From assembly GCA_947365245.1 (NCBI GenBank), contig CANAWG010000001.1:124001-188000 (forward strand): a stretch of DNA of 64,000 nt. Direction: 5' to 3'. This DNA is from an uncultured Oscillibacter sp. (lineage in GTDB: Bacteria; Bacillota; Clostridia; Oscillospirales; Oscillospiraceae). Shown here one piece after another: positions 6,267-59,520 of the stretch. Under the pieces are notes generated by a model. That model had not been told where the DNA came from, ran no database searches, and saw nothing but the letters and a program-made list of their open reading frames with translations. Position 1 is the first letter of the stretch; the number at the start of each line of letters is the position of its first letter. The position numbers and the translations under genes are program-made.

Positions 6267-6335
6267 ACACCTACCAAAAGAAAAGGAATGATAGGTGTAG
6301 CCCGTGCGCGCGGCACTCCGTTACAGCTATCATTC
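6267..6335 (-). promoter_or_regulatory. Structured leader of ssnA with alternative hairpins
   Basis: On the minus strand a 14-position stem (arms 6335-6322 and 6299-6286, one G-G mismatch) is followed by CTTTTCTTTT, resembling an intrinsic terminator. The 3' arm contains ACACCTA, which can instead pair perfectly with TAGGTGT at 6273-6267 just downstream. The two helices cannot form together, so this looks like an attenuator. I could not match it to a known riboswitch class; the purine-riboswitch core was looked for and not found. Confidence 0.5.
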
Positions 6336-6497
6336 TTCGCTTGTACGTATAGTCTATCAGAATTTTCGGGAGAGCGCAAGCAATAAACTTTAGAAAATGC
6401 CGGAAATTTTTGTGGATTTCGCCGGTGACTCCCGCCCGCCCGCAGACCACCCGGGAAAAATTTCACAGAATCACACCAAATTTTTTGAAAAAACTAC

Positions 6498-44348: not shown

Positions 44349-44750
44349 TCAGGGCTTCTTGCGGCTGCACTCCTTGGGGACCACGCAGGTGCCCTCGGCC
44401 ACGGCCACGATGACGGGCTCCTCCAGGAAATCCGCGGCGGAGGCGCTGATGTCGGGGCGGGTGGCGATGACCTTGCGGGCCTCAAAGCGCATCTTGCGGG
44501 AGGTGTTGCCGATATGGGTGACCTCGCCGTAGGCCTCGATGTAGTCGCCGGCGTAGACGGGCGCCTTGAACTCCACGTTGTTGTAGGCGCAGAACAGACC
44601 CTCGTCGCCGTCGGTCTGAATCAGCAGCTCCGTGGCCACGTCGCCGAAGAGGTGGACCATGTGGGCGCCGTCCACCAGGTTCCCGCCGTAGTGGGCGTCC
44701 TTGGCGGACATGCGCAGGCGGATCAGCGAGGTGTACTTCTTCTCTTCCAT
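44349..44750 (-). CDS. kal: 3-aminobutyryl-CoA ammonia-lyase (Kal), hotdog fold
   Basis: 133 residues, a single hotdog domain. [20 protein letters not shown] (~15-34) and [19 protein letters not shown] (~58-76) resemble thioesterase-like hotdog enzymes, and the gene stands inside the lysine locus where Kal is expected. Kal removes ammonia from L-3-aminobutyryl-CoA to give crotonyl-CoA. I distinguish it from a plain thioesterase by context and by the [10 protein letters not shown] motif I associate with Kal; the fold alone would not decide. It has its own promoter (TTGACA-17-TACAAT) and terminator. Confidence 0.85.
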
Positions 44751-44819
44751 GTTCGTATCACTCCTGTTTTTTATTTGCGGATGGCTCCGCACGTTCCCTC
44801 GTCGGGGTTCACAAAATTC

Positions 44820-44876: not shown

Positions 44877-45485
44877 CTATAGGGACTGGATAAACTGCAG
44901 AATCAGCCGCAGGCCGTAGACCAGGATCACGCTGCCGCAGACGATGTTGATGATCCGCAGAACGCGGTCGTTGAACCGGGCGGAGAAGAGGGAGATCAGC
45001 AGCGTGACGCCGGAGAACCACAGGCAGGAGGCGGTGGCGGAGCCCAGCACCAGCAGGGTGCTGTCGGCCCCCGGGTGGCCCACCCGGAAGCTGCCGTAGA
45101 GCAGCGTCCCGTCGATGAGGGCCTGTGGGTTGAGCCAGGTGACCACAAAGGCCTTGGCGGCGATTCTGGAGAGCGGAATGTCCATGTCCACGCTTTGATC
45201 CATGGAGGGCCGCTCCCGGATCAGCCCCAGGCCGATCCAGCACACCACCACCCCGCCGGCAGCCAGGACGATCATCTGGAGCCATGTGAAGCGCTCCACC
45301 AGCGCGCCGATGCCGAAGAAGCAGGCCAGCAGCAGGCTGACGTCGAAGAAGATCACGATCAGCGTGATGGGGACCAGCCGCCGCCGGGGCTGGGTCAGGG
45401 CGGCGTTGATGACGAACAGGTTCTGCATCCCGATGGGGGCCACGTAGGCCAGGCCAATGGCCAGCCCCTGCAAATAAAGACCCAT
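44877..45485 (-). CDS. LysE/ArgO-type amino acid exporter
   Basis: 202 residues with about six hydrophobic helices. LysE marks are GLAYVAPIGMQNLFVINAAL (~11-30, with the P-I-G-x-Q-x-x motif), a conserved Asp in ITLIVIFFDVSLL (~48) and VVTWLNPQALIDGTLLYGS (~115-133). LysE/ArgO proteins export lysine or arginine when internal levels rise. Its place beside kal and the lysine operon supports basic amino acid export. CGGGAGG precedes the ATG. It is divergent from the HxlR-kamB-kamC unit. Confidence 0.9.
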   Translation of the reverse strand: MGLYLQGLAIGLAYVAPIGMQNLFVINAALTQPRRRLVPITLIVIFFDVSLLLACFFGIGALVERFTWLQMIVLAAGGVVVCWIGLGLIRERPSMDQSVDMDIPLSRIAAKAFVVTWLNPQALIDGTLLYGSFRVGHPGADSTLLVLGSATASCLWFSGVTLLISLFSARFNDRVLRIINIVCGSVILVYGLRLILQFIQSL

Positions 45486-48545: not shown

Positions 48546-48574
48546 TTGACAAAAGCCGCCATATAGAGTATATT
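48546..48574 (+). promoter_or_regulatory. Promoter of the riboswitch-controlled lysine operon
   Basis: TTGACA (48546-48551), 17-base spacer, TATATT (48569-48574). Transcription would begin near 48581, just ahead of the lysine aptamer. Confidence 0.9.
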
Positions 48575-48589
48575 GTTTTTAGTCAAAGT

Positions 48590-48773
48590 GAATAAAGTAT
48601 GGATAGAGGCGCGGAACGCAAGGTAGCAGGCCGATGCAAAGGACAGGCAAGTCCGAGGCGGTCTGTGAATGTCCGTACCGCCGAAAGAGGGTTTGAGCTG
48701 CCGCCTCCCCTCTTGGACCTGTACGCCCAGCGCGTGCGGTTTGTCATGAGAAACATGGAGTGCTATTTATGCC
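48590..48773 (+). ncRNA. Lysine riboswitch aptamer (L-box)
   Basis: Matches the L-box core in order: GGATAGAGGCGCGGAACGCA then AAGGTAGCAGG, CTGTGAATGTCC, GCCGAAAGAGGG, GGACCTGTACGC, a short CATG-AGAAA-CATG hairpin and GGAGTGCTAT. P1 can form as a 10-bp helix between 48597-48606 (GUAUGGAUAG) and 48763-48772 (CUAUUUAUGC), with G-U pairs. It precedes kce-kdd-kamADE, all lysine degradation genes, which agrees with the ligand. Confidence 0.9.
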
Positions 48774-48827
48774 TGTGGGGAGCTTTTTTCATCTGTTTCT
48801 GCGTGGCATAAATAGTCTCTTGTTTTT
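48763..48827 (+). terminator. Expression-platform hairpin 1 of the lysine riboswitch
   Basis: CTATTTATGCC (48763-48773) pairs without mismatch with GGCATAAATAG (48805-48815), followed by TCTCTTGTTTTT. Its 5' arm is the 3' strand of aptamer P1, so folding of the lysine-bound aptamer should block this hairpin. Confidence 0.75.
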
Positions 48828-48893
48828 ATGGAGCGCTATCCTACCCCGCGTATTCCAGCAATATGCGGCGTAGGAAAGCGCTCCAAGTTTTTT
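48828..48893 (+). terminator. Expression-platform hairpin 2, strong terminator before kce
   Basis: GGAGCGCTATCCTAC (48830-48844) pairs with GTAGGAAAGCGCTCC (48870-48884), one A-A mismatch, extended by an inner CCGCGTATT/AATATGCGG helix and followed by AAGTTTTTT. The opening ATGGAGCGCTAT (48828-48839) repeats the aptamer 3' end ATGGAGTGCTAT (48755-48766) with one change. Confidence 0.85.
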
Positions 48894-48908
48894 AGCAGGA
48901 GGTACGAA

Positions 48909-49727
48909 ATGGAAAAACTCATCATCACAGCAGCAATATGCGGAGCCGAGGTCACCAAGGAGCACAACCCCGCCGTTCCCTACACTGTGGAGGAGATGGT
49001 GCGGGAGGCCAAGAGCGCCTTTGAGGCCGGCGCCGCCGTCATCCATGTCCACGTCCGCTGGGACGACGGAACCCCCACCCAGGACAAAGAGCGCTTCCGC
49101 GTGGTGCTGGACGCCATCCGCGAGGCCTGCCCCGGCGTGATTCTCATCCCCTCCACCGGCGGCGCCACCGGCATGACCCCGGAGGAGCGCCTGCAGCCCA
49201 CGGAGCTGATGCCCGAGATGGCCACGCTGGACTGCGGCACCTGCAACTTCGGCGACGACATCTTCGTCAACGATATGCCCACCATGCGCGCTTTCGGCAA
49301 GCGCATGCTGGAGAACAACATCAAGCCCGAGTATGAGTGCTTCGAGATCGGCCACCTGGATACCGTGCTGAACATGGCCGCCAAGGGTCTGGTCCCCGGC
49401 GCCCCCATGCAGTTCAACTTCGTGCTGGGCGTCAACGGCTGCACCCCCGCCACCCTGGGCAACCTGGACTACCTGGTGAACAAGATCCCCGCCGGGTCCA
49501 CCTGGACCGTCACCGGCGTGGGCCGGGGCGCGTGGCCCATGGCCGCGGCCGGCATCGTCATGGGCGGCAACGTCCGCGTGGGCTTCGAGGACAACATCTA
49601 CCTGGAGAAGGGCCGCAAGGCCGCCTCCAACGGTGAGCTGGTGGCCAAGGTCGTGGCCCTGGCCAAGCTCCTGGGCCGTGAGATCGCCACCCCCGACGAG
49701 GCCCGGAAGATCCTGTCCCTGACATAA
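48909..49727 (+). CDS. kce: 3-keto-5-aminohexanoate cleavage enzyme
   Basis: 272 residues, the BKACE fold. Zinc ligands are His46 and His48 in AAVIHVHVRWDDG; the loop IPSTGGATGMTPEER (~80) and FEIGHLDTV (~140) are family marks. Kce condenses 3-keto-5-aminohexanoate with acetyl-CoA to give acetoacetate and 3-aminobutyryl-CoA. AGCAGGAGG sets the ATG at 48909, sixteen bases beyond the second riboswitch terminator. It is the first gene of the riboswitch-controlled operon. Confidence 0.95.
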   Translation: MEKLIITAAICGAEVTKEHNPAVPYTVEEMVREAKSAFEAGAAVIHVHVRWDDGTPTQDKERFRVVLDAIREACPGVILIPSTGGATGMTPEERLQPTELMPEMATLDCGTCNFGDDIFVNDMPTMRAFGKRMLENNIKPEYECFEIGHLDTVLNMAAKGLVPGAPMQFNFVLGVNGCTPATLGNLDYLVNKIPAGSTWTVTGVGRGAWPMAAAGIVMGGNVRVGFEDNIYLEKGRKAASNGELVAKVVALAKLLGREIATPDEARKILSLT

Positions 49728-49827
49728 GTGAGAGGCGCGGCCTCTCCGTGACCCAGCCATTCCATTTCATCATTTTTTGCATTCCATAAATCTTACCATA
49801 CAAATTTTTTTGAGGAGGAACACCACC

Positions 49828-50871
49828 ATGCAGAAGAAAGGCAACAAGTACGGCACCCACCGCGTTATCGAGCCCAAGGGCGTTTTGACCCAGGCCGCCC
49901 AGAAAATCGACAACAACATGGACGAGATCTACTCCAACGAGATTCTGTGCAACGTCACCGCTCTGAACATCGACTCCGCCTCTTTCACCCAGATCTCCGA
50001 CGCCTGCGGCGGCGACGAGACCAAGATCGGCGAGATGATTATGGGCATCGTGGCCGAGCGCGGCAAGCAGCAGAACCCCGTCACCGGCTCCGGCGGCATG
50101 TTCATGGGCAACGTTGCCAAGATCGGCGACGATCTCAAGGGCAAGATCGACCTCAAGGAGGGCGACAAGATCGTCTCCCTGGTGTCCCTGTCTCTGACTC
50201 CCCTGAAGATCAACAAGATCAAGGCCATCCACAAGGAGATCGACCGCGTGGACGTGGACGCCCAGGCGATCCTGTTTGAGAGCGGCATCTACGCCAAGAT
50301 GCCCGACGATATGCCCGAGCCCCTGGCCCTGGCCGCTCTGGACGTGGCCGGCGCTCCCGCCCAGGCCCGCAAGCTCCCCAAGGAGGGCGACAGCGTCCTG
50401 ATCCTGGGCGCCAACGGCAAGTCCGGCGTGCTGTGCGGCTATGAGGCCATGAAGAAGGTCGGCCCCAAGGGCAAGGTCGTGGGCGTCGTCCGCAACCCCA
50501 AGCAGGTCGCCGACCTGAAGGAGCTGGGCGTCTACACCGACATCGTCGTGGCCGACTGCACCCGCCCCGTGGACGTGATGGAGGCCGCTCTGGCCGCCAA
50601 CGACGGCAAGGAGTACGACATCTCCATCTGCTGCGTCAACATCGAGAGCTGCGAGATGTCCGCCATCCTGCCCGTCCGTGACGACGGCCTGGTGTACTTC
50701 TTCTCCATGGCCACCTCTTTCACCAAGGCGGCCCTGGGCGCCGAGGGCATCGGCAAGGACGTCACCATGATCGTGGGCAACGGCTACACCAAGGACCACG
50801 CCAACATCACCCTGAACGTCCTCCGGGAGAACGCGAAGCTGCGCAAGCTGTTCGAGGAGAAGTACGTCTGA
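49828..50871 (+). CDS. kdd: 3,5-diaminohexanoate dehydrogenase
   Basis: 347 residues. It begins KKGNKYGTHRVIEPKGVLTQAA, typical of Kdd, and has a Rossmann dinucleotide site in VLILGANGKSGVLCGYEA (~190). It oxidises L-erythro-3,5-diaminohexanoate to 5-amino-3-oxohexanoate with NAD(P)+. GAGGAGG precedes the ATG at 49828. A 100-base gap after kce contains nothing notable. Several lysine-pathway genes here (kce, kdd) show strong AAG/GAG/GGC codon preference, as expected for highly expressed genes. Confidence 0.95.
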   Translation: MQKKGNKYGTHRVIEPKGVLTQAAQKIDNNMDEIYSNEILCNVTALNIDSASFTQISDACGGDETKIGEMIMGIVAERGKQQNPVTGSGGMFMGNVAKIGDDLKGKIDLKEGDKIVSLVSLSLTPLKINKIKAIHKEIDRVDVDAQAILFESGIYAKMPDDMPEPLALAALDVAGAPAQARKLPKEGDSVLILGANGKSGVLCGYEAMKKVGPKGKVVGVVRNPKQVADLKELGVYTDIVVADCTRPVDVMEAALAANDGKEYDISICCVNIESCEMSAILPVRDDGLVYFFSMATSFTKAALGAEGIGKDVTMIVGNGYTKDHANITLNVLRENAKLRKLFEEKYV

Positions 50872-50911: not shown

Positions 50912-52177
50912 ATGAAAGTTTCCCGTCGTGCTGAACTGTTCCCCAACGTCACCGACGCCGAGTGGAACGATTGGAAATGGCAGGTCAAAAACCGCGTTGA
51001 GACCCTGGAGGACCTGAAGAAGTACGTCTCCCTGACCCCCGAGGAGGAAGAGGGCGTCAAGGCGTGCCTGGGCACGCTGCGCATGGCCATCACCCCCTAC
51101 TACCTCTCTCTGATCGATCCCAACGATCCCCACGACCCCATCCGCCGTCAGGCCGTCCCCACCGCGCTGGAGCTGCACCAGGCCGACTCCGACCTGCTGG
51201 ACCCCCTGCACGAGGATGAGGACTCCCCGGCTCCGGGTCTGACCCACCGCTATCCGGACCGCTGCCTGCTGCTGATCACCGACCAGTGCTCCATGTACTG
51301 CCGCCACTGCACCCGCCGGCGCTTCGCCGGTCAGAACGACGCCGGCCTCCCGGTGGACCAGGTGGATCAGGCCATCGAGTACATCCGCAAGACGCCCGTC
51401 ATCCGCGACGTGCTGCTCTCCGGCGGCGACGCCCTGCTCTGCTCCGACGAGCGGCTGGAGTACATCATCTCCAAGCTCCGGGAGATCCCTCACGTGGAGA
51501 TCGTCCGCATCGGCTCCCGCACCCCGGTGGTCTGCCCTCAGCGCATCACCCCCGAGCTGTGCGCCATGCTGAAGAAATATCACCCCATCTGGCTGAACAC
51601 CCACTTCAACCACCCCAACGAGATCACTCCCGAGTCCTCCAAGGCCTGCCAGATGCTGGCTGACGCCGGCATCCCCCTGGGCAACCAGAGCGTGCTGCTG
51701 GCCGGCGTGAACGACTGCGTCCACACCATGAAGAAGCTGGTCAATGAGCTGGTGAAGATCCGGGTCCGCCCCTACTACATCTACCAGTGCGACCTGTCCA
51801 TGGGTCTGGAGCACTTCCGTACCCCCGTCAGCAAGGGCATCGAGATCATCGAGGCTCTGCGGGGCCACACCTCCGGCTTCTGCGTGCCCACTTTCGTGGT
51901 GGACGCCCCCGGCGGCGGCGGCAAGACTCCCGTCATGCCCCAGTATGTCATCTCCCAGACGCCGCACAAGGTCATTCTCCGCAACTACGAGGGCGTCATC
52001 ACCACCTACACCGAGCCCGAGCACTACGAGGAGACCTGCCAGTGCGAGTACTGCCGCGCCGAGCGGGAGGGCAAGCGCAAGACGGAGCTCATGGGTGTCG
52101 CCGGACTGGAGCGGGGCCAGGCCCTGTCCATGGAGCCCGCCAACCTGGAGCGCCACAAGCGTTCTCACCACGAGTAA
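50912..52177 (+). CDS. kamA: L-lysine 2,3-aminomutase
   Basis: 421 residues, the length of the clostridial enzyme. The radical-SAM cluster motif CX3CX2C is at CSMYCRHC (~126-133), the SAM site nearby in LLSGGDALLC, and the PLP lysine in APGGGGKTP (~337). It converts L-lysine to L-beta-lysine. The C-terminal Cys motif (CQCEYC, ~378) matches the zinc-binding cysteines of this family. AAAGTGGAGG precedes the ATG. Confidence 0.96.
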   Translation: MKVSRRAELFPNVTDAEWNDWKWQVKNRVETLEDLKKYVSLTPEEEEGVKACLGTLRMAITPYYLSLIDPNDPHDPIRRQAVPTALELHQADSDLLDPLHEDEDSPAPGLTHRYPDRCLLLITDQCSMYCRHCTRRRFAGQNDAGLPVDQVDQAIEYIRKTPVIRDVLLSGGDALLCSDERLEYIISKLREIPHVEIVRIGSRTPVVCPQRITPELCAMLKKYHPIWLNTHFNHPNEITPESSKACQMLADAGIPLGNQSVLLAGVNDCVHTMKKLVNELVKIRVRPYYIYQCDLSMGLEHFRTPVSKGIEIIEALRGHTSGFCVPTFVVDAPGGGGKTPVMPQYVISQTPHKVILRNYEGVITTYTEPEHYEETCQCEYCRAEREGKRKTELMGVAGLERGQALSMEPANLERHKRSHHE

Positions 52178-52276: not shown

Positions 52277-53875
52277 TTGAAATCCAAACTGAACCTTGAT
52301 TTTAAGCTGGTGGAGCAGGCCCGCGCCCACGCCGCCCAGGTGGCCGACGAAACCCAGCGGTTTATCGACGGCTACACCACCGTGGCCGTGGAGCGCACCA
52401 TCTGCCGGCTGCTGGGCATCGACGGCGTCAGCGGCGGCGAGGCCCTGGACATCACCGGCGAGAACAGCCTGGGCGTGCCCCTGCCCAGCGTGGTGGTGGA
52501 CCACCTGATGGAAAAGGGCGCGCTGTCCCAGGGCGCCGCTTTCTGGCTGGGCAACGCCATGGTGGAGACCGGCAAGACCCCCCAGGCCCTGGCCGAGGAG
52601 GTGGCCGCCGGCACACTGGATCTGACCGCCCTGCCCGCCCACGCCGAGGCGGACATTCACGCGGTTCTGGCCCCCATCGTGGAGGAGAGCCTGAAGAAGA
52701 TCCGCACCCGCCGCAAGCGCCGGGAGGACTTCATCGCCTCCCACGGCGGCGAGAAGGACGGCCCCTGGGTCTACCTGATCGTGGCCACCGGCAACATCTA
52801 CGAGGACATCGTGCAGGCCACCGCCGCCGCCCGCCAGGGCGCCGACGTCATCGCCGTCATCCGCACCACCGGCCAGTCCCTGCTGGACTACGTGCCCTAC
52901 GGAGCCACCACCGAGGGCTTCGGCGGCACCTACGCCACCCAGGAGAACTTCCGCCTCATGCGGGAGGCCATGGACAAGGTGGGCGAGGAGCTGGGCCGCT
53001 ACATCCGGGTGTGCAACTACTGCTCCGGTCTGTGCATGCCTGAGATCGCCGCCATGGGCGCGTTCGAGGGCCTGGACGTCATGCTGAACGACGCCCTCTA
53101 CGGCATCCTCTTCCGGGACATCAACATGCAGCGCACCCTGGTGGACCAGTCCTTCTCCCGGGCGATCAACGCCTACGCGGGCGTGGTCATCAACACCGGC
53201 GAGGACAACTACCTCACCACGGCCGACGCCGTGGAGGAGGCCCACACCGTGCTGGCCTCCCAGTTCCTCAACGAGGCGTTCGCCCTCAAGGCGGGCCTGC
53301 CGGAGGAGCAGATGGGCCTGGGCCACGCCTTTGAGATCGACCCCGACGTGGAGAACGGCTTTTTGTACGAGCTGGCCCAGGCCGAGATGGCCCGGGAGAT
53401 CTTCCCCAACGCGCCGCTGAAGTACATGCCTCCCACCAAGTTCATGACCGGCAACGTCTTCCGGGGCCATGTGCAGGACGCCCTGTTCAACATGGTGACC
53501 ATCCTGACGGGCCAGAAGATCCACCTGCTGGGCATGATGACCGAGGCCATCCACACTCCTTTCCTGTCCGACCGGTTCCTGGCCATCCAGAACGCCCAGT
53601 ACATCTTCCGCACCATGCGGGACCTGGGCAGCGAGATCGTGTTCAAGGACGGCGGCATCATGCAGAATCGCGCCAACGACGTTTTGAAGAAGGCCACCGA
53701 CCTGCTGGCGCAGATCGAGCAGCTGGGCATCTTCGAGACGCTGGAGCGGGGCATCTTCGCCGACATCAAGCGTCCCCGTGACGGCGGCAAGGGCCTGGAC
53801 GGCGTTGTCAGCAAGGCGCCTGGCTACTTCAACCCGTTCCTGGAACCCATGATGAAAGGGGGTGCCGGCAAATGA
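52277..53875 (+). CDS. kamD: D-lysine/beta-lysine 5,6-aminomutase alpha subunit
   Basis: 532 residues. It begins with KSKLNLDFKLVEQARAHA and contains the highly conserved stretch IVATGNIYEDI, RTTGQSLLDYVPYGATTEGF and NYCSGLCMPEIAAMGA that bind PLP and substrate. With KamE it performs the adenosylcobalamin- and PLP-dependent 5,6-amino shift. The start is a TTG that aligns with known N-termini; the upstream ribosome site is weak, so some translation coupling to kamA is possible across the 100-base gap. The stop overlaps kamE by four bases. Confidence 0.96.
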   Translation: MKSKLNLDFKLVEQARAHAAQVADETQRFIDGYTTVAVERTICRLLGIDGVSGGEALDITGENSLGVPLPSVVVDHLMEKGALSQGAAFWLGNAMVETGKTPQALAEEVAAGTLDLTALPAHAEADIHAVLAPIVEESLKKIRTRRKRREDFIASHGGEKDGPWVYLIVATGNIYEDIVQATAAARQGADVIAVIRTTGQSLLDYVPYGATTEGFGGTYATQENFRLMREAMDKVGEELGRYIRVCNYCSGLCMPEIAAMGAFEGLDVMLNDALYGILFRDINMQRTLVDQSFSRAINAYAGVVINTGEDNYLTTADAVEEAHTVLASQFLNEAFALKAGLPEEQMGLGHAFEIDPDVENGFLYELAQAEMAREIFPNAPLKYMPPTKFMTGNVFRGHVQDALFNMVTILTGQKIHLLGMMTEAIHTPFLSDRFLAIQNAQYIFRTMRDLGSEIVFKDGGIMQNRANDVLKKATDLLAQIEQLGIFETLERGIFADIKRPRDGGKGLDGVVSKAPGYFNPFLEPMMKGGAGK

Positions 53876-54660
53876 GCTCCGGACTGTATCAGATTCGCGA
53901 TAAAAACCTGGACACCACCCTGGACCTGACCCGTTTGAAGCCCTATGGCGACACCATGAACGACGGCAAGGTGCAGACGTCTTTCACCCTCCCGGTGAAG
54001 GACGACGACCGGGGCGCGGCGGCCGCCGTGCTGGTGGCCCAGAAGATGGGCCTGGCGGAGCCCAACGTGGCCCTGCGGCAGAAGCTGGACGAGAACTTCA
54101 CGTTCTACGTGGTCTACGGCTCTCTGACCCACACCGTCAACTACAACGAGATCGTGGTGCAGACCGTCACCGACGAGGTGATGGATATGCACGAGACCGA
54201 CGAGTTCCTCAAAGAGCGCCTGGGCCGCAAGATGGTGGTCATCGGCGCGTCCACCGGCACGGACGCCCACACCGTGGGCATCGACGCCATCATGAACCGC
54301 AAGGGCTTCGCCGGCCACTACGGCCTGGAGCGCTACGAGATGGTGGAGGCCTACAACCTGGGCAGCCAGGTCCCCAACGAGGAGTTTCTGCGCAAGGCCG
54401 CCGAGGTGAACGCCGACGTGGTGCTGGTCTCCCAGACCGTCACCCAGAAAGACGTCCACATCCAGAACCTCACCGAGCTCATCGAGCTGGCGGAGGCCGA
54501 GGGCGTCCGGGAGAAGTACATCTTCTGCTGCGGCGGCGCCCGCATCACCCACGCGCTGGCCAAGGAGCTGGGCTACGACGCGGGCTTCGGCGCCGGCACT
54601 TACGCCGACGACGTGGCCACGTTCACCTCGAAAGAGCTGGTCCGCCGCCTGAACAAGTAA
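53872..54660 (+). CDS. kamE: D-lysine/beta-lysine 5,6-aminomutase beta subunit
   Basis: 262 residues. The cobalamin-binding His133 lies in GTDAHTVGIDA and Lys144, which carries PLP in this enzyme family, in MNRKGFAGHYG, at the same positions as in the well-studied Clostridium enzyme. AAAGGGGG precedes the ATG. Dependence on adenosylcobalamin links this operon to the cobalamin-riboswitch locus about 5 kb downstream. Confidence 0.96.
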   Translation: MSSGLYQIRDKNLDTTLDLTRLKPYGDTMNDGKVQTSFTLPVKDDDRGAAAAVLVAQKMGLAEPNVALRQKLDENFTFYVVYGSLTHTVNYNEIVVQTVTDEVMDMHETDEFLKERLGRKMVVIGASTGTDAHTVGIDAIMNRKGFAGHYGLERYEMVEAYNLGSQVPNEEFLRKAAEVNADVVLVSQTVTQKDVHIQNLTELIELAEAEGVREKYIFCCGGARITHALAKELGYDAGFGAGTYADDVATFTSKELVRRLNK

Positions 54661-54926: not shown

Positions 54927-56591
54927 ATGCAATCCCTGAAAAATCTGAAGGACAGACTCGGCAAAGTCCTGCTGGTCATGTACGCGCTGGTTCCTTTCAT
55001 GACCGTCTTTGCCATGGCCGCTGAGGACGGCCAGAGCAGGTTCTACGGCACCATCTGGTCCCTGGTTCCCCCCGTGGTGGCCATCGGTCTGGCCCTGATC
55101 ACCAAGGAGGTTTACTCCTCGCTGTTTCTGGGCATTCTGGTGGGCTACCTGATCCAGATGGAGTTCAACCCCGTATCCGCCATCACCACGCTGATCGCGG
55201 ACCTGGGCGACAACATCGGCGGCAACGCCGGCATCCTGATCTTCCTGGTGGTCCTGGGCACCATGGTGGCCCTGATGATCCGCGCCGGCGGCTCCAAGGC
55301 CTACGGCGACTGGGCTGTGGAGCACCTGAAGAGCAAGAAGAGCGCCCTGTGGTCCACGTTCATCCTGGCCGCCATCCTGGGCGTGGACGACTACTTCAAC
55401 AACCTGACCACCGGCAACGTCATGCGTCCCGTCACGGACCGGCACCAGATCTCCCGCGCCAAGCTGGCCTACATGTGCGACGCCACCGCCGCCCCCATCT
55501 GCATCATGATGCCCGTCTCCTCCTGGGCCGCCGCCGTCACCGGCGTTATCGACAACGAGGAGCTGGGCTTCCAGATCTTCTGCCGGGCCATTCCCTATAA
55601 CTTCTACGCTGTCCTGACCATCGTCTTCATCATCGTCATGATCGTCCGGGACATCGACTTCGGCCCCATGAAGACCCATGAGGACAACGCCAAGGCGGGC
55701 GACATCTACACCACTCCCGAGCGTCCCTTTGCCGGCGCCGAGGAGATGAAGTTCAACCCCAACGGCAAGGTCATCGACCTGGTGATTCCCGTCATCATCC
55801 TGATCATCGGCTGCGTGGGCGGACTGATGTACGCCGGCTATCTGAACGGCGGCGTGGGCCTGCTGGGCATGTTCGCCAACACCGACGCTTTCGTGGGTCT
55901 GCCTCTGGGCTCCACCGTGGCGCTGATTATCAACTTCATCTACTTCGCCTGCCGCAAGTCCATGAAGTTCACCGAGCTGATGGACTGCCTGCCTGAGGGC
56001 TTCAAGCAGATGGTTCCCGCCATTTTGATCCTGTGCTTCGCCTGGACCATCGGCGGCGTGACCCGTTACGGCCTGGGCGCTCCCGAGTTCGTGGCCGGCC
56101 TGGTGTCCTCTTTCGGTCCCACCCTGTACAACATGCTGCCCGCCGTGATCTTCCTGATCGCCTGCGGCCTGGGCTTCGCCACCGGCACCTCCTGGGGTAC
56201 CTTCGGCATCCTGCTGCCCATCGTGCTGGACGTGTTCACCCCCGGCGGCTTTGCCAACCTCACCGCTGACGCCCTGAACGAGGTGCCCATCCTCATGGTC
56301 GGCATCGGCGCCACTCTGGGCGGCGCGGTCTGCGGCGACCACTGCTCTCCCATCTCCGATACCACCATCATGGCGTCCTCCGGCTCTCAGTGCTACCACA
56401 TCAACCACGTGGTCACCCAGATGCCCTACGCCATGACCGTGGCGGCCATCTCTTTCGTGAACTACGTGATCACCGGCTTCCTCATCAGCTTTGTGCCGGA
56501 GATCGTCTGCCTGCTCATCGCCATCGCCTCCACCATCGTCACCATGCTGGTGATCGACAAGGTGACCAAGTCCAAGAAGGCCGCCGCCTGA
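54927..56591 (+). CDS. NhaC-family antiporter, probable lysine-pathway transporter
   Basis: 554 residues with 11-12 hydrophobic segments. NhaC-type features are ILGVDDYFNNLTTGNVMRPV (~150), ATAAPICIMMPVSSWAA (~190), FATGTSWGTFGILLPI (~415) and GDHCSPISDTTIMASSG (~470). The family exchanges cations for organic substrates, and some members carry amino acids. Its place at the end of the lysine operon suggests lysine uptake coupled to sodium or product exchange, but the substrate is inferred only from position. AAAAGGAGG precedes the ATG; an N-terminal helix resembles a signal anchor. Confidence 0.88.
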   Translation: MQSLKNLKDRLGKVLLVMYALVPFMTVFAMAAEDGQSRFYGTIWSLVPPVVAIGLALITKEVYSSLFLGILVGYLIQMEFNPVSAITTLIADLGDNIGGNAGILIFLVVLGTMVALMIRAGGSKAYGDWAVEHLKSKKSALWSTFILAAILGVDDYFNNLTTGNVMRPVTDRHQISRAKLAYMCDATAAPICIMMPVSSWAAAVTGVIDNEELGFQIFCRAIPYNFYAVLTIVFIIVMIVRDIDFGPMKTHEDNAKAGDIYTTPERPFAGAEEMKFNPNGKVIDLVIPVIILIIGCVGGLMYAGYLNGGVGLLGMFANTDAFVGLPLGSTVALIINFIYFACRKSMKFTELMDCLPEGFKQMVPAILILCFAWTIGGVTRYGLGAPEFVAGLVSSFGPTLYNMLPAVIFLIACGLGFATGTSWGTFGILLPIVLDVFTPGGFANLTADALNEVPILMVGIGATLGGAVCGDHCSPISDTTIMASSGSQCYHINHVVTQMPYAMTVAAISFVNYVITGFLISFVPEIVCLLIAIASTIVTMLVIDKVTKSKKAAA

Positions 56592-59304: not shown

Positions 59305-59520
59305 ACAGAATATAGAAAAGCAGTCGGAGCCGCTTCCCCCTTGGGGAAGCGGGTAAAAGGGAAACAGGTGAAAGGCCTGTACGATCTCGTCACTGTATGC
59401 AGGGAGCGCGCTGCCTGTGTCCAACCAGGACAGCCACTGGCGAAAGCCGGGAAGGCGGCGGCGCGTGAGGATCTGTGAGTCAGGAAACCTGCCGCCTGCC
59501 GGTACAGGAATACCACCCGG
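59305..59520 (+). ncRNA. Cobalamin riboswitch
   Basis: The core elements appear in order: GGGAAACAGGTGAAAGGCCTG, here split as GGGAAACAGGTG and AAAGGCCTGTACG, then GTCACTGTATGC, CAGCCACTGGCGAAAGCCGG, GAAGGCGGCGGCGCGTGAGG and the B12 box AGTCAGGAAACCTGCC (59478-59493). It lies upstream of an exported CbiK, a binding lipoprotein and a FecCD-type importer. Confidence 0.95.

Follow-up and report, generated by a model that had tools for sequence, protein, structure and literature searches.

In the window (the whole stretch of 64,000 nucleotides that was analysed), a lysine riboswitch leader precedes kce, kdd, kamA, kamD and kamE, which form a lysine-fermentation pathway and each score above their NCBIfam cut-off. 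All five lie on the forward strand: kce (3-keto-5-aminohexanoate cleavage enzyme; 48909-49727; NF052387, 415 bits against a cut-off of 382), kdd (L-erythro-3,5-diaminohexanoate dehydrogenase; 49828-50871; NF052381, 261 against 200 bits; the start codon at 49828 is our choice, the profile query having spanned 49819-50871), kamA (lysine 2,3-aminomutase; 50912-52177; TIGR03820, 626.9 against 525.4 bits), and kamD and kamE (lysine 5,6-aminomutase alpha and beta; 52283-54660; NF052384, 896.4 against 600 bits, and NF052385, 389.3 against 280 bits). Butyrate is the end product towards which lysine-fermentation operons turn lysine. The nearest kce relatives of this assembly are named Oscillibacter. 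Ahead of the leader, a sigma-70-type promoter (TTGACA-17-TATATT; 48546-48574, forward strand) matches at 11 of 12 positions, one such site being found in 2 kb against 0.2 expected. The gene for 3-aminobutyryl-CoA ammonia lyase, kal (NF052388, above cut-off), lies outside the kce operon on the opposite strand (44349-44759) and adjoins a LysE-like exporter (44877-45485; score below cut-off); in many relatives kal is the first gene of the riboswitch operon. An NhaC/ArcD-like antiporter (54927-56591, forward strand; all NCBIfam matches below cut-off) follows kamE and is possibly a lysine carrier. A cobalamin riboswitch (RF00174, 98 bits; 59308-59510, forward strand) is located ~4.6 kb downstream of kamE, and lysine 5,6-aminomutase requires B12. 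An ssnA RNA motif (RF03031, 61.5 bits) occupies 6289-6336 of the reverse strand.

One aptamer, two closing strands and two hairpins

The aptamer matches the full length of the lysine riboswitch model at 48596-48773 (RF00168; 54.4 bits against a gathering score of 30; E = 1.8e-11) and is the only such match in the whole assembly (~95% complete). It lies on the forward strand, as do all features of the leader described below. The conserved L-box junction bases, which line the lysine pocket, are present in the cmscan alignment (AGAGG, GCCGAA, UGG, UGUCA and GGAGYGCUA). The leader holds one complete aptamer, not the two of a pseudo-cooperative tandem riboswitch, and it is the closing strand of this aptamer that is doubled. 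Copy 1 (ATGGAGTGCTAT, 48755-48766) spans the P5 3' side, J5/1 and the start of the P1 3' side; the ATGGAGYGCTAT strand reappears 73 bases further on, where a second hairpin opens, as copy 2 (ATGGAGCGCTAT, 48828-48839), which again provides a P5 3' side, J5/1 and P1 3' side and is kept in relatives. The P1 5' strand (48597-48606) is common to both, forming 10 pairs with the P1 3' strand of copy 1 (48763-48772; cmscan alignment) or, with one bulge, 9 pairs with the alternative strand of copy 2 (CUAUCC plus UAC, 48836-48844; folds). In the alignment and the folds, the P5 5' strand CAUG (48745-48748) likewise pairs with 48754-48757 at copy 1 or 48827-48830 at copy 2. No place in the 64 kb other than these two matches the 12-mer within one mismatch (0.25 places expected), and two sites arose in 3 of 100 shuffles.

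Each P1 3' strand is also part of the 5' arm of a predicted terminator. In T1 (48758-48827), a perfect 11-bp core (48763-48773 with 48805-48815) is extended by GAG (48758-48760) pairing CUC (48817-48819), encloses a loop of 31 bases and is followed by the tail UUGUUUUU (48820-48827). In T2 (48829-48893), a stem-loop at 48829-48885 is followed by a U-tract, TTTTTT at 48888-48893, that ends 15 bases ahead of the kce ATG at 48909. Predicted folding energies are -26.4 kcal/mol (z = -6.07) for the T1 segment (48755-48827) and -40.0 kcal/mol (z = -8.88) for the T2 segment (48826-48895), with 0 of 200 shuffles as good in either case. Both hairpins are mutually exclusive with P1, and T2 and copy 1 do not overlap. 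A terminator 5' arm that overlaps the P1 3' strand is the structure of a transcriptional ON riboswitch, and two intrinsic-terminator-like hairpins in series behind one aptamer, if both terminate as predicted, make a dual-terminator platform like that of Bc1, discussed below.

Most of what the initial annotation had described here is borne out: the L-box ahead of kce-kdd-kamADE, whose 3' end the covariance model now places at 48773, the 12-base recurrence and the two successive hairpins exclusive with P1. The perfect 11-bp hairpin stands as well, with a longer stem and a better tail than had been thought. T2 is the stronger hairpin by folding energy, its distance to the ATG having been overstated by one base (16). 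Tighter binding of the P1 5' strand by copy 2 is not confirmed, the two energies showing no clear difference (-8.8 kcal/mol for copy 1 and -8.9 kcal/mol for copy 2).

Two other roles were considered for these elements and rejected. T2 does not appear to cover the ribosome-binding site, since AGGAGG (48897-48902, ahead of kce) lies outside the hairpin. Copy 2 begins with an ATG in frame with kce (ORF 48828-49727, a possible 27-residue extension), but a leader peptide does not fit a frame that stops before kce in L061, copies that start with GTG or ACG, and the lack of a visible Shine-Dalgarno sequence ahead of the copy-2 ATG. Homogenization of the copies by recombination is at odds with the differences between ATGGAGTGCTAT and ATGGAGCGCTAT in the window and in leaders L061, L062 and L063, and between ATGGTGCGCTAT and GTGAAGCGCTGT in L082; as the copies differ within leaders, their conservation does not appear to be plain copying.

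Tandem leaders in related genomes

Related loci comprised 80 named kce loci and further relatives without names. Rfam detected the aptamer upstream of kce in 76 of 80 loci scanned (71 named and 9 unnamed; 19, 19, 20 and 18 in batches of 20). The scan covered 71 of the 80 named loci, with L071-L073 represented by identical unnamed loci, L141, L143, L145, L147, L148 and L150 left out, and L068 and L070 (~43% identical relatives, from a set of 11 loci) also set aside. The four loci of 80 without a match are L062, L091, L133 and L138. L062, which has no match at the gathering score, nevertheless carries a tandem leader resembling that of the window; L091, a second kce locus of Flavonifractor plautii ATCC 29863, has no lysine riboswitch, and its upstream region resembles kdd coding sequence.

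Leaders before kce come in single-terminator and tandem forms. Removal of identical leaders reduced 52 tandem entries to 38, or 39 with L062 in the position-wise count of P1, T1 and T2 pairing; all 38 have kce in the locus, and most kdd and/or kal too. L098, L124, L151 and L161, with a second motif judged to be chance, were dropped before counting. A further leader with a degenerate copy 2, L076, was left out of leader counts, folds and conservation. This kce-first leader of an uncultured Flavonifractor sp. has a copy 2 diverged to ATGGAGGGTTGT, and its kce groups with the window clade in the kce tree. With wobbles allowed, its UUGUCC may yet pair with GGAUAG of the P1 strand, and the leader is a natural test case.

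No second copy was found in 49 located control lysine riboswitches, drawn from the 58 best RF00168 matches of the genus and family whatever genes lay behind them; L009, L032, L034, L038, L039, L042, L051, L053 and L058 were not located, the contig of L002 ends 22 bases past the copy, so that this locus is not a complete control, and controls L033 and L036 correspond to entries L151 and L161 of a looser pattern. A search with the tandem motif pattern, in which copies are spaced 40-70 bases apart so that wider-spaced tandem leaders are missed, matched 19 of 400 family genomes, with none from the reversed control among the matches listed. Of the 20 places listed, 16 precede kce; L151 and L161 are lysine riboswitches whose loci lack kce, kdd, kal and kamA, and L168 and L169, which resembled coding sequence, were dropped. 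The same search of 391 class genomes returned the window's own genome and one match taken for chance (L171), against 3 matches for the reversed control. Among the places examined, the duplicated 3' strand appears restricted to kce loci. In a tree of 72 kce proteins (33 labelled tandem, including L076), the bootstrap of which was not fully settled, the tandem state changes six times, as forced by supported branches, suggesting repeated gains, losses or exchange of leaders.

T1 takes the P1 3' strand in all 38 tandem leaders and in 38 of the 39 single ones, and in the same proportions an 8-base stretch with at least 5 T lies within the 12 bases after it; seven consecutive T occur there in 14 of the 15 Flavonifractor-type leaders. 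T2 forms with the copy-2 CTRT paired in 34 of 38 tandem leaders, 30 of which also have at least 5 T in 8; the four without counted T belong to the window clade, whose six-T run the script misses by ending the stem too early. In two of the five window-clade leaders, L061 and L063, the T1 U-tract is broken (CCCCCTTATG, CCCCC) while the hairpin is kept, which suggests a role other than termination there; T1 may be a weak terminator in the window clade. The T1 hairpin of these two leaders shows compensatory changes.

The strand shared by P1 and T1 co-varies with both partners. With the innermost P1 pair counted as k=0 and T arms placed gap-free at best pairing, which favours the T side, both pairings are possible at P1 position 5 (k=4) in every one of the 39 leaders, the bases of P1 strand, copy 1 and T1 arm being, in that order, G-U-A, A-U-A, G-C-G or A-U-G. 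The same holds at position 6 (k=5) in 33 of 39 (G-C-G, C-G-C or G-U-R) and at position 8 (k=7) also in 33. Within the window clade, A48599-U48770-A48808 becomes G-C-G in L061 and L063. The P1 and T1 helices therefore both look real and mutually exclusive and, with a ligand that stabilizes P1, amount to an ON switch. P1-copy 2 covariation over 14 cluster representatives was not above shuffles (p = 0.07-0.21; run length, p = 0.14), whereas P1-copy 1 covariation was marginal by position (p = 0.05-0.06) and clear by run length (p = 5e-5), in a shuffling that treats representatives as independent. About six pairs between P1 and copy 2 are kept, and positions 7-10 pair both ways in 9, 7, 3 and 20 of 39 leaders. 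The consensus over the same 14 representatives is ATGRAGYGCTAT for copy 1 and ATGRAGCGCTRT for copy 2, with mixed bases after copy 2; NGCTRT was used in picking the copies and ATGRA was not. The copy-2 12-mer ATGAAGCGCTAT is identical in 15 of 15 Flavonifractor-type leaders (14 found via kce and one, L153, via the motif; L076 left out), where identity declines from 100% in the 12-mer to 76% in the next 8 bases and 55% in the T2 loop and 3' arm. In 7 of these 15, the T2 stem begins only at GCTAT, leaving the seven bases ATGAAGC unpaired, so T2 does not explain their conservation; P5 and J5/1 can.

The initial annotation had tied its ON wiring to homologous leaders that keep both hairpins, and the 38 distinct tandem leaders have that arrangement, with the P1 3' strand forming a terminator-like 5' arm in nearly all tandem and single leaders alike. 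The check it had proposed, whether hairpins and duplication are kept with covariation, gives support for their retention and for P1, copy 1 and T1, and no significant signal for P1 with copy 2.

Predicted folding and a two-gate reading

In predicted minimum-free-energy (MFE) folds of the growing window RNA, P1 is closed by copy 1 for RNA ends up to 48785, and this pairing is lost at 48791-48809, before the T1 3' arm is complete; T1 appears from 48815, P1 closed by copy 2 accompanies T1 at 48840-48872, and T2 appears from 48876. When transcripts stop just beyond copy 2, 31 of the 38 tandem leaders have an MFE fold in which copy 2 closes P1, against 2% when the copy-2 block is shuffled; 27 of the 38 pair P5 with copy 2, and all 38 contain T1. 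The seven leaders that fold without copy 2 are L086, L100, L115, L121, L137, L142 and L170, and in L137, L142 and L170 copy 2 gives just four P1 pairs. Closure by copy 2 is better than closure by copy 1 by 5.6-20.9 kcal/mol in all 38 leaders because T1 can then form; for L134 a one-base slip left the closure constraint without effect, and the free fold closes P1 with copy 2. Comparison of folds with and without P1, which the initial annotation had proposed, puts both hairpins ahead at equilibrium (window, T1 stage -85.9 against -74.2 kcal/mol for the aptamer; final -130.7 against -117.4 kcal/mol), so that on these models the switch would have to be kinetic.

Taken together, sequence, comparison and folding show the strand sharing, both hairpins, the conservation of copy 2 as an aptamer strand and the predicted order of folding. 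We favour, with a probability of about two-thirds, a transcriptional ON riboswitch with two gates, in which one aptamer body can be closed by either of two strands, and each of these strands forms the 5' arm of a separate terminator. At the first gate, copy 1 would leave P1 for T1 in the absence of lysine and polymerase would tend to stop, whereas with lysine the P1 closed by copy 1 would delay T1 and polymerase would continue. Once polymerase is beyond T1, that hairpin would be harmless and would free the P1 5' strand, and the emerging copy 2, with its own P5 3' side, J5/1 and P1 3' side, could rebuild the aptamer with T1 as an insert in P5. The effect of T1 would thus depend on timing: formed early it would stop transcription, and formed late it would aid the hand-over. 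At the second gate, the rebuilt, lysine-bound aptamer would delay T2; without lysine, T2 would form and transcription would end. Since T2 shares no bases with copy 1, closing the lysine-bound aptamer through copy 1 would carry polymerase past T1 but leave T2 ahead. Expression from this promoter would need T2 to be opened, for which P1 closed by copy 2 is the only candidate seen, and a hand-over is therefore preferred. As copy 2 brings its own J5/1, the pocket would be rebuilt and lysine probably read anew. We infer the direction in which lysine acts, that both hairpins terminate, that lysine is released and bound again during the hand-over, and that leak is lower or the response steeper. More tentatively, one aptamer may be read twice per transcript, its pocket dismantled and rebuilt, which would give pseudo-cooperative or proofreading-like control; lysine-fermenting gut Clostridia, mostly Oscillospiraceae, would have acquired or lost this arrangement on several occasions.

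Alternatively, copy 2 and T2 could form a single ON switch, with copy 1 and T1 a relic that now acts as a P5 insert or as a hairpin hiding the old strand. The T1 hairpin retained ahead of a broken U-tract in L061 and L063, its presence in every fold ending past copy 2 and its long loop in the window all fit that reading, but at least 5 T in 8 lie within 12 bases after T1 in all 38 leaders, seven of them consecutive in 14 of 15 Flavonifractor-type leaders, and copy 1 keeps up to 10 covarying P1 pairs that a relic would not need; we consider it unlikely. T2 could also be a plain, ligand-independent back-up terminator, with copy 2 resembling copy 1 only through recent duplication. Modules that are alike along their length in L065 (= L089), L069 (= L090) and L088, as after tandem duplication, are consistent with this, as are the non-significant P1-copy 2 covariation and the seven leaders that fold without copy 2. 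Yet if T2 did not respond to any ligand, the operon would stay off permanently, the closure of P1 by copy 2 largely disappears once the copy-2 block is shuffled, and the 12-mer is unchanged across the Flavonifractor type (15 of 15, without L076) beside a T2 loop and 3' arm of 55% identity, all of which make a passive T2 improbable.

A lysine OFF switch is very improbable. Here lysine would hold P1 on copy 1 and leave T2 free, whereas without lysine T1 would take copy 1 and the P1 5' strand would antiterminate by pairing with copy 2. The two P1 pairings do exclude each other, T2 lies clear of copy 1, and OFF is the usual sign for biosynthesis lysine riboswitches in the text consulted (PMC11477304). 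The operon genes, in contrast, degrade lysine; T1 would have to be non-terminating despite its T-rich tail in 38 of 38 leaders; the J5/1 and P5 bases of copy 2 would serve no need, yet are conserved even where T2 leaves them unused; and single-terminator relatives before the same genes share a strand between P1 and the terminator in 38 of 39 cases, which fits ON only.

Relation to known riboswitches and meaning of a proposed second gate

ON lysine riboswitches and two-terminator platforms were already known, and the exchangeable duplicated strand is apparently new in the literature searched. In a purine riboswitch, strand exchange reportedly runs between aptamer and expression platform; in the window leader, the proposed exchange would also run between two copies of an aptamer strand. 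What the two would share, on the accessible part of the purine study (PMC9756952), is co-transcriptional strand exchange at P1 as the deciding step. Lysine-catabolic operons with kal and kce are described as positively regulated by an L-box riboswitch (PMC5584792, in the passages available), and certain ON-logic lysine riboswitches as burying pieces of terminator stems (PMC2258182, likewise in part). These catabolic riboswitches have the same aptamer family, genes and ON logic as the window leader, but the available passages of both papers mention a single lysine riboswitch per operon, and neither a second P1 and J5/1 strand nor a second P1-exclusive terminator. The c-di-GMP-I riboswitch Bc1 resembles the window leader in having one aptamer and two serial intrinsic terminators, those of Bc1 being 28 bp apart, and differs in its ligand and in that the available portion of its description (PMC11218506) speaks of no aptamer strand duplicated at the second terminator. 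In the genome, Bc1 T1 seemed to be bypassed and T2 to dominate, according to the same portion (PMC11218506). Pseudo-cooperative tandem riboswitches, including 14 double lysine ones, also place two ligand-gated terminators in series under one ligand, as far as the excerpted account goes (PMC9481103), but have two aptamers, whereas the window leader reuses one body and doubles only the 3' closing strand and the terminator. No report of a duplicated aptamer closing strand was found in the open-licence literature searched, a set without the 2003 LYS-element paper.

Riboswitches are commonly drawn as a single aptamer joined to a single expression platform, with sharper control requiring another complete aptamer. 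In this leader the extra gate seems to cost only ~70 bases, a spare closing strand fused to its own terminator. If the hand-over is true, the gain would be a lower leak or a steeper response, like that described in part for pseudo-cooperative tandems (PMC9481103), without a second aptamer. The system allows a direct test of whether one aptamer is consulted twice per transcription event and of the effect on leak and steepness. Single and tandem leaders before the same genes form an evolutionary series, and the operons concerned serve lysine fermentation in gut bacteria.
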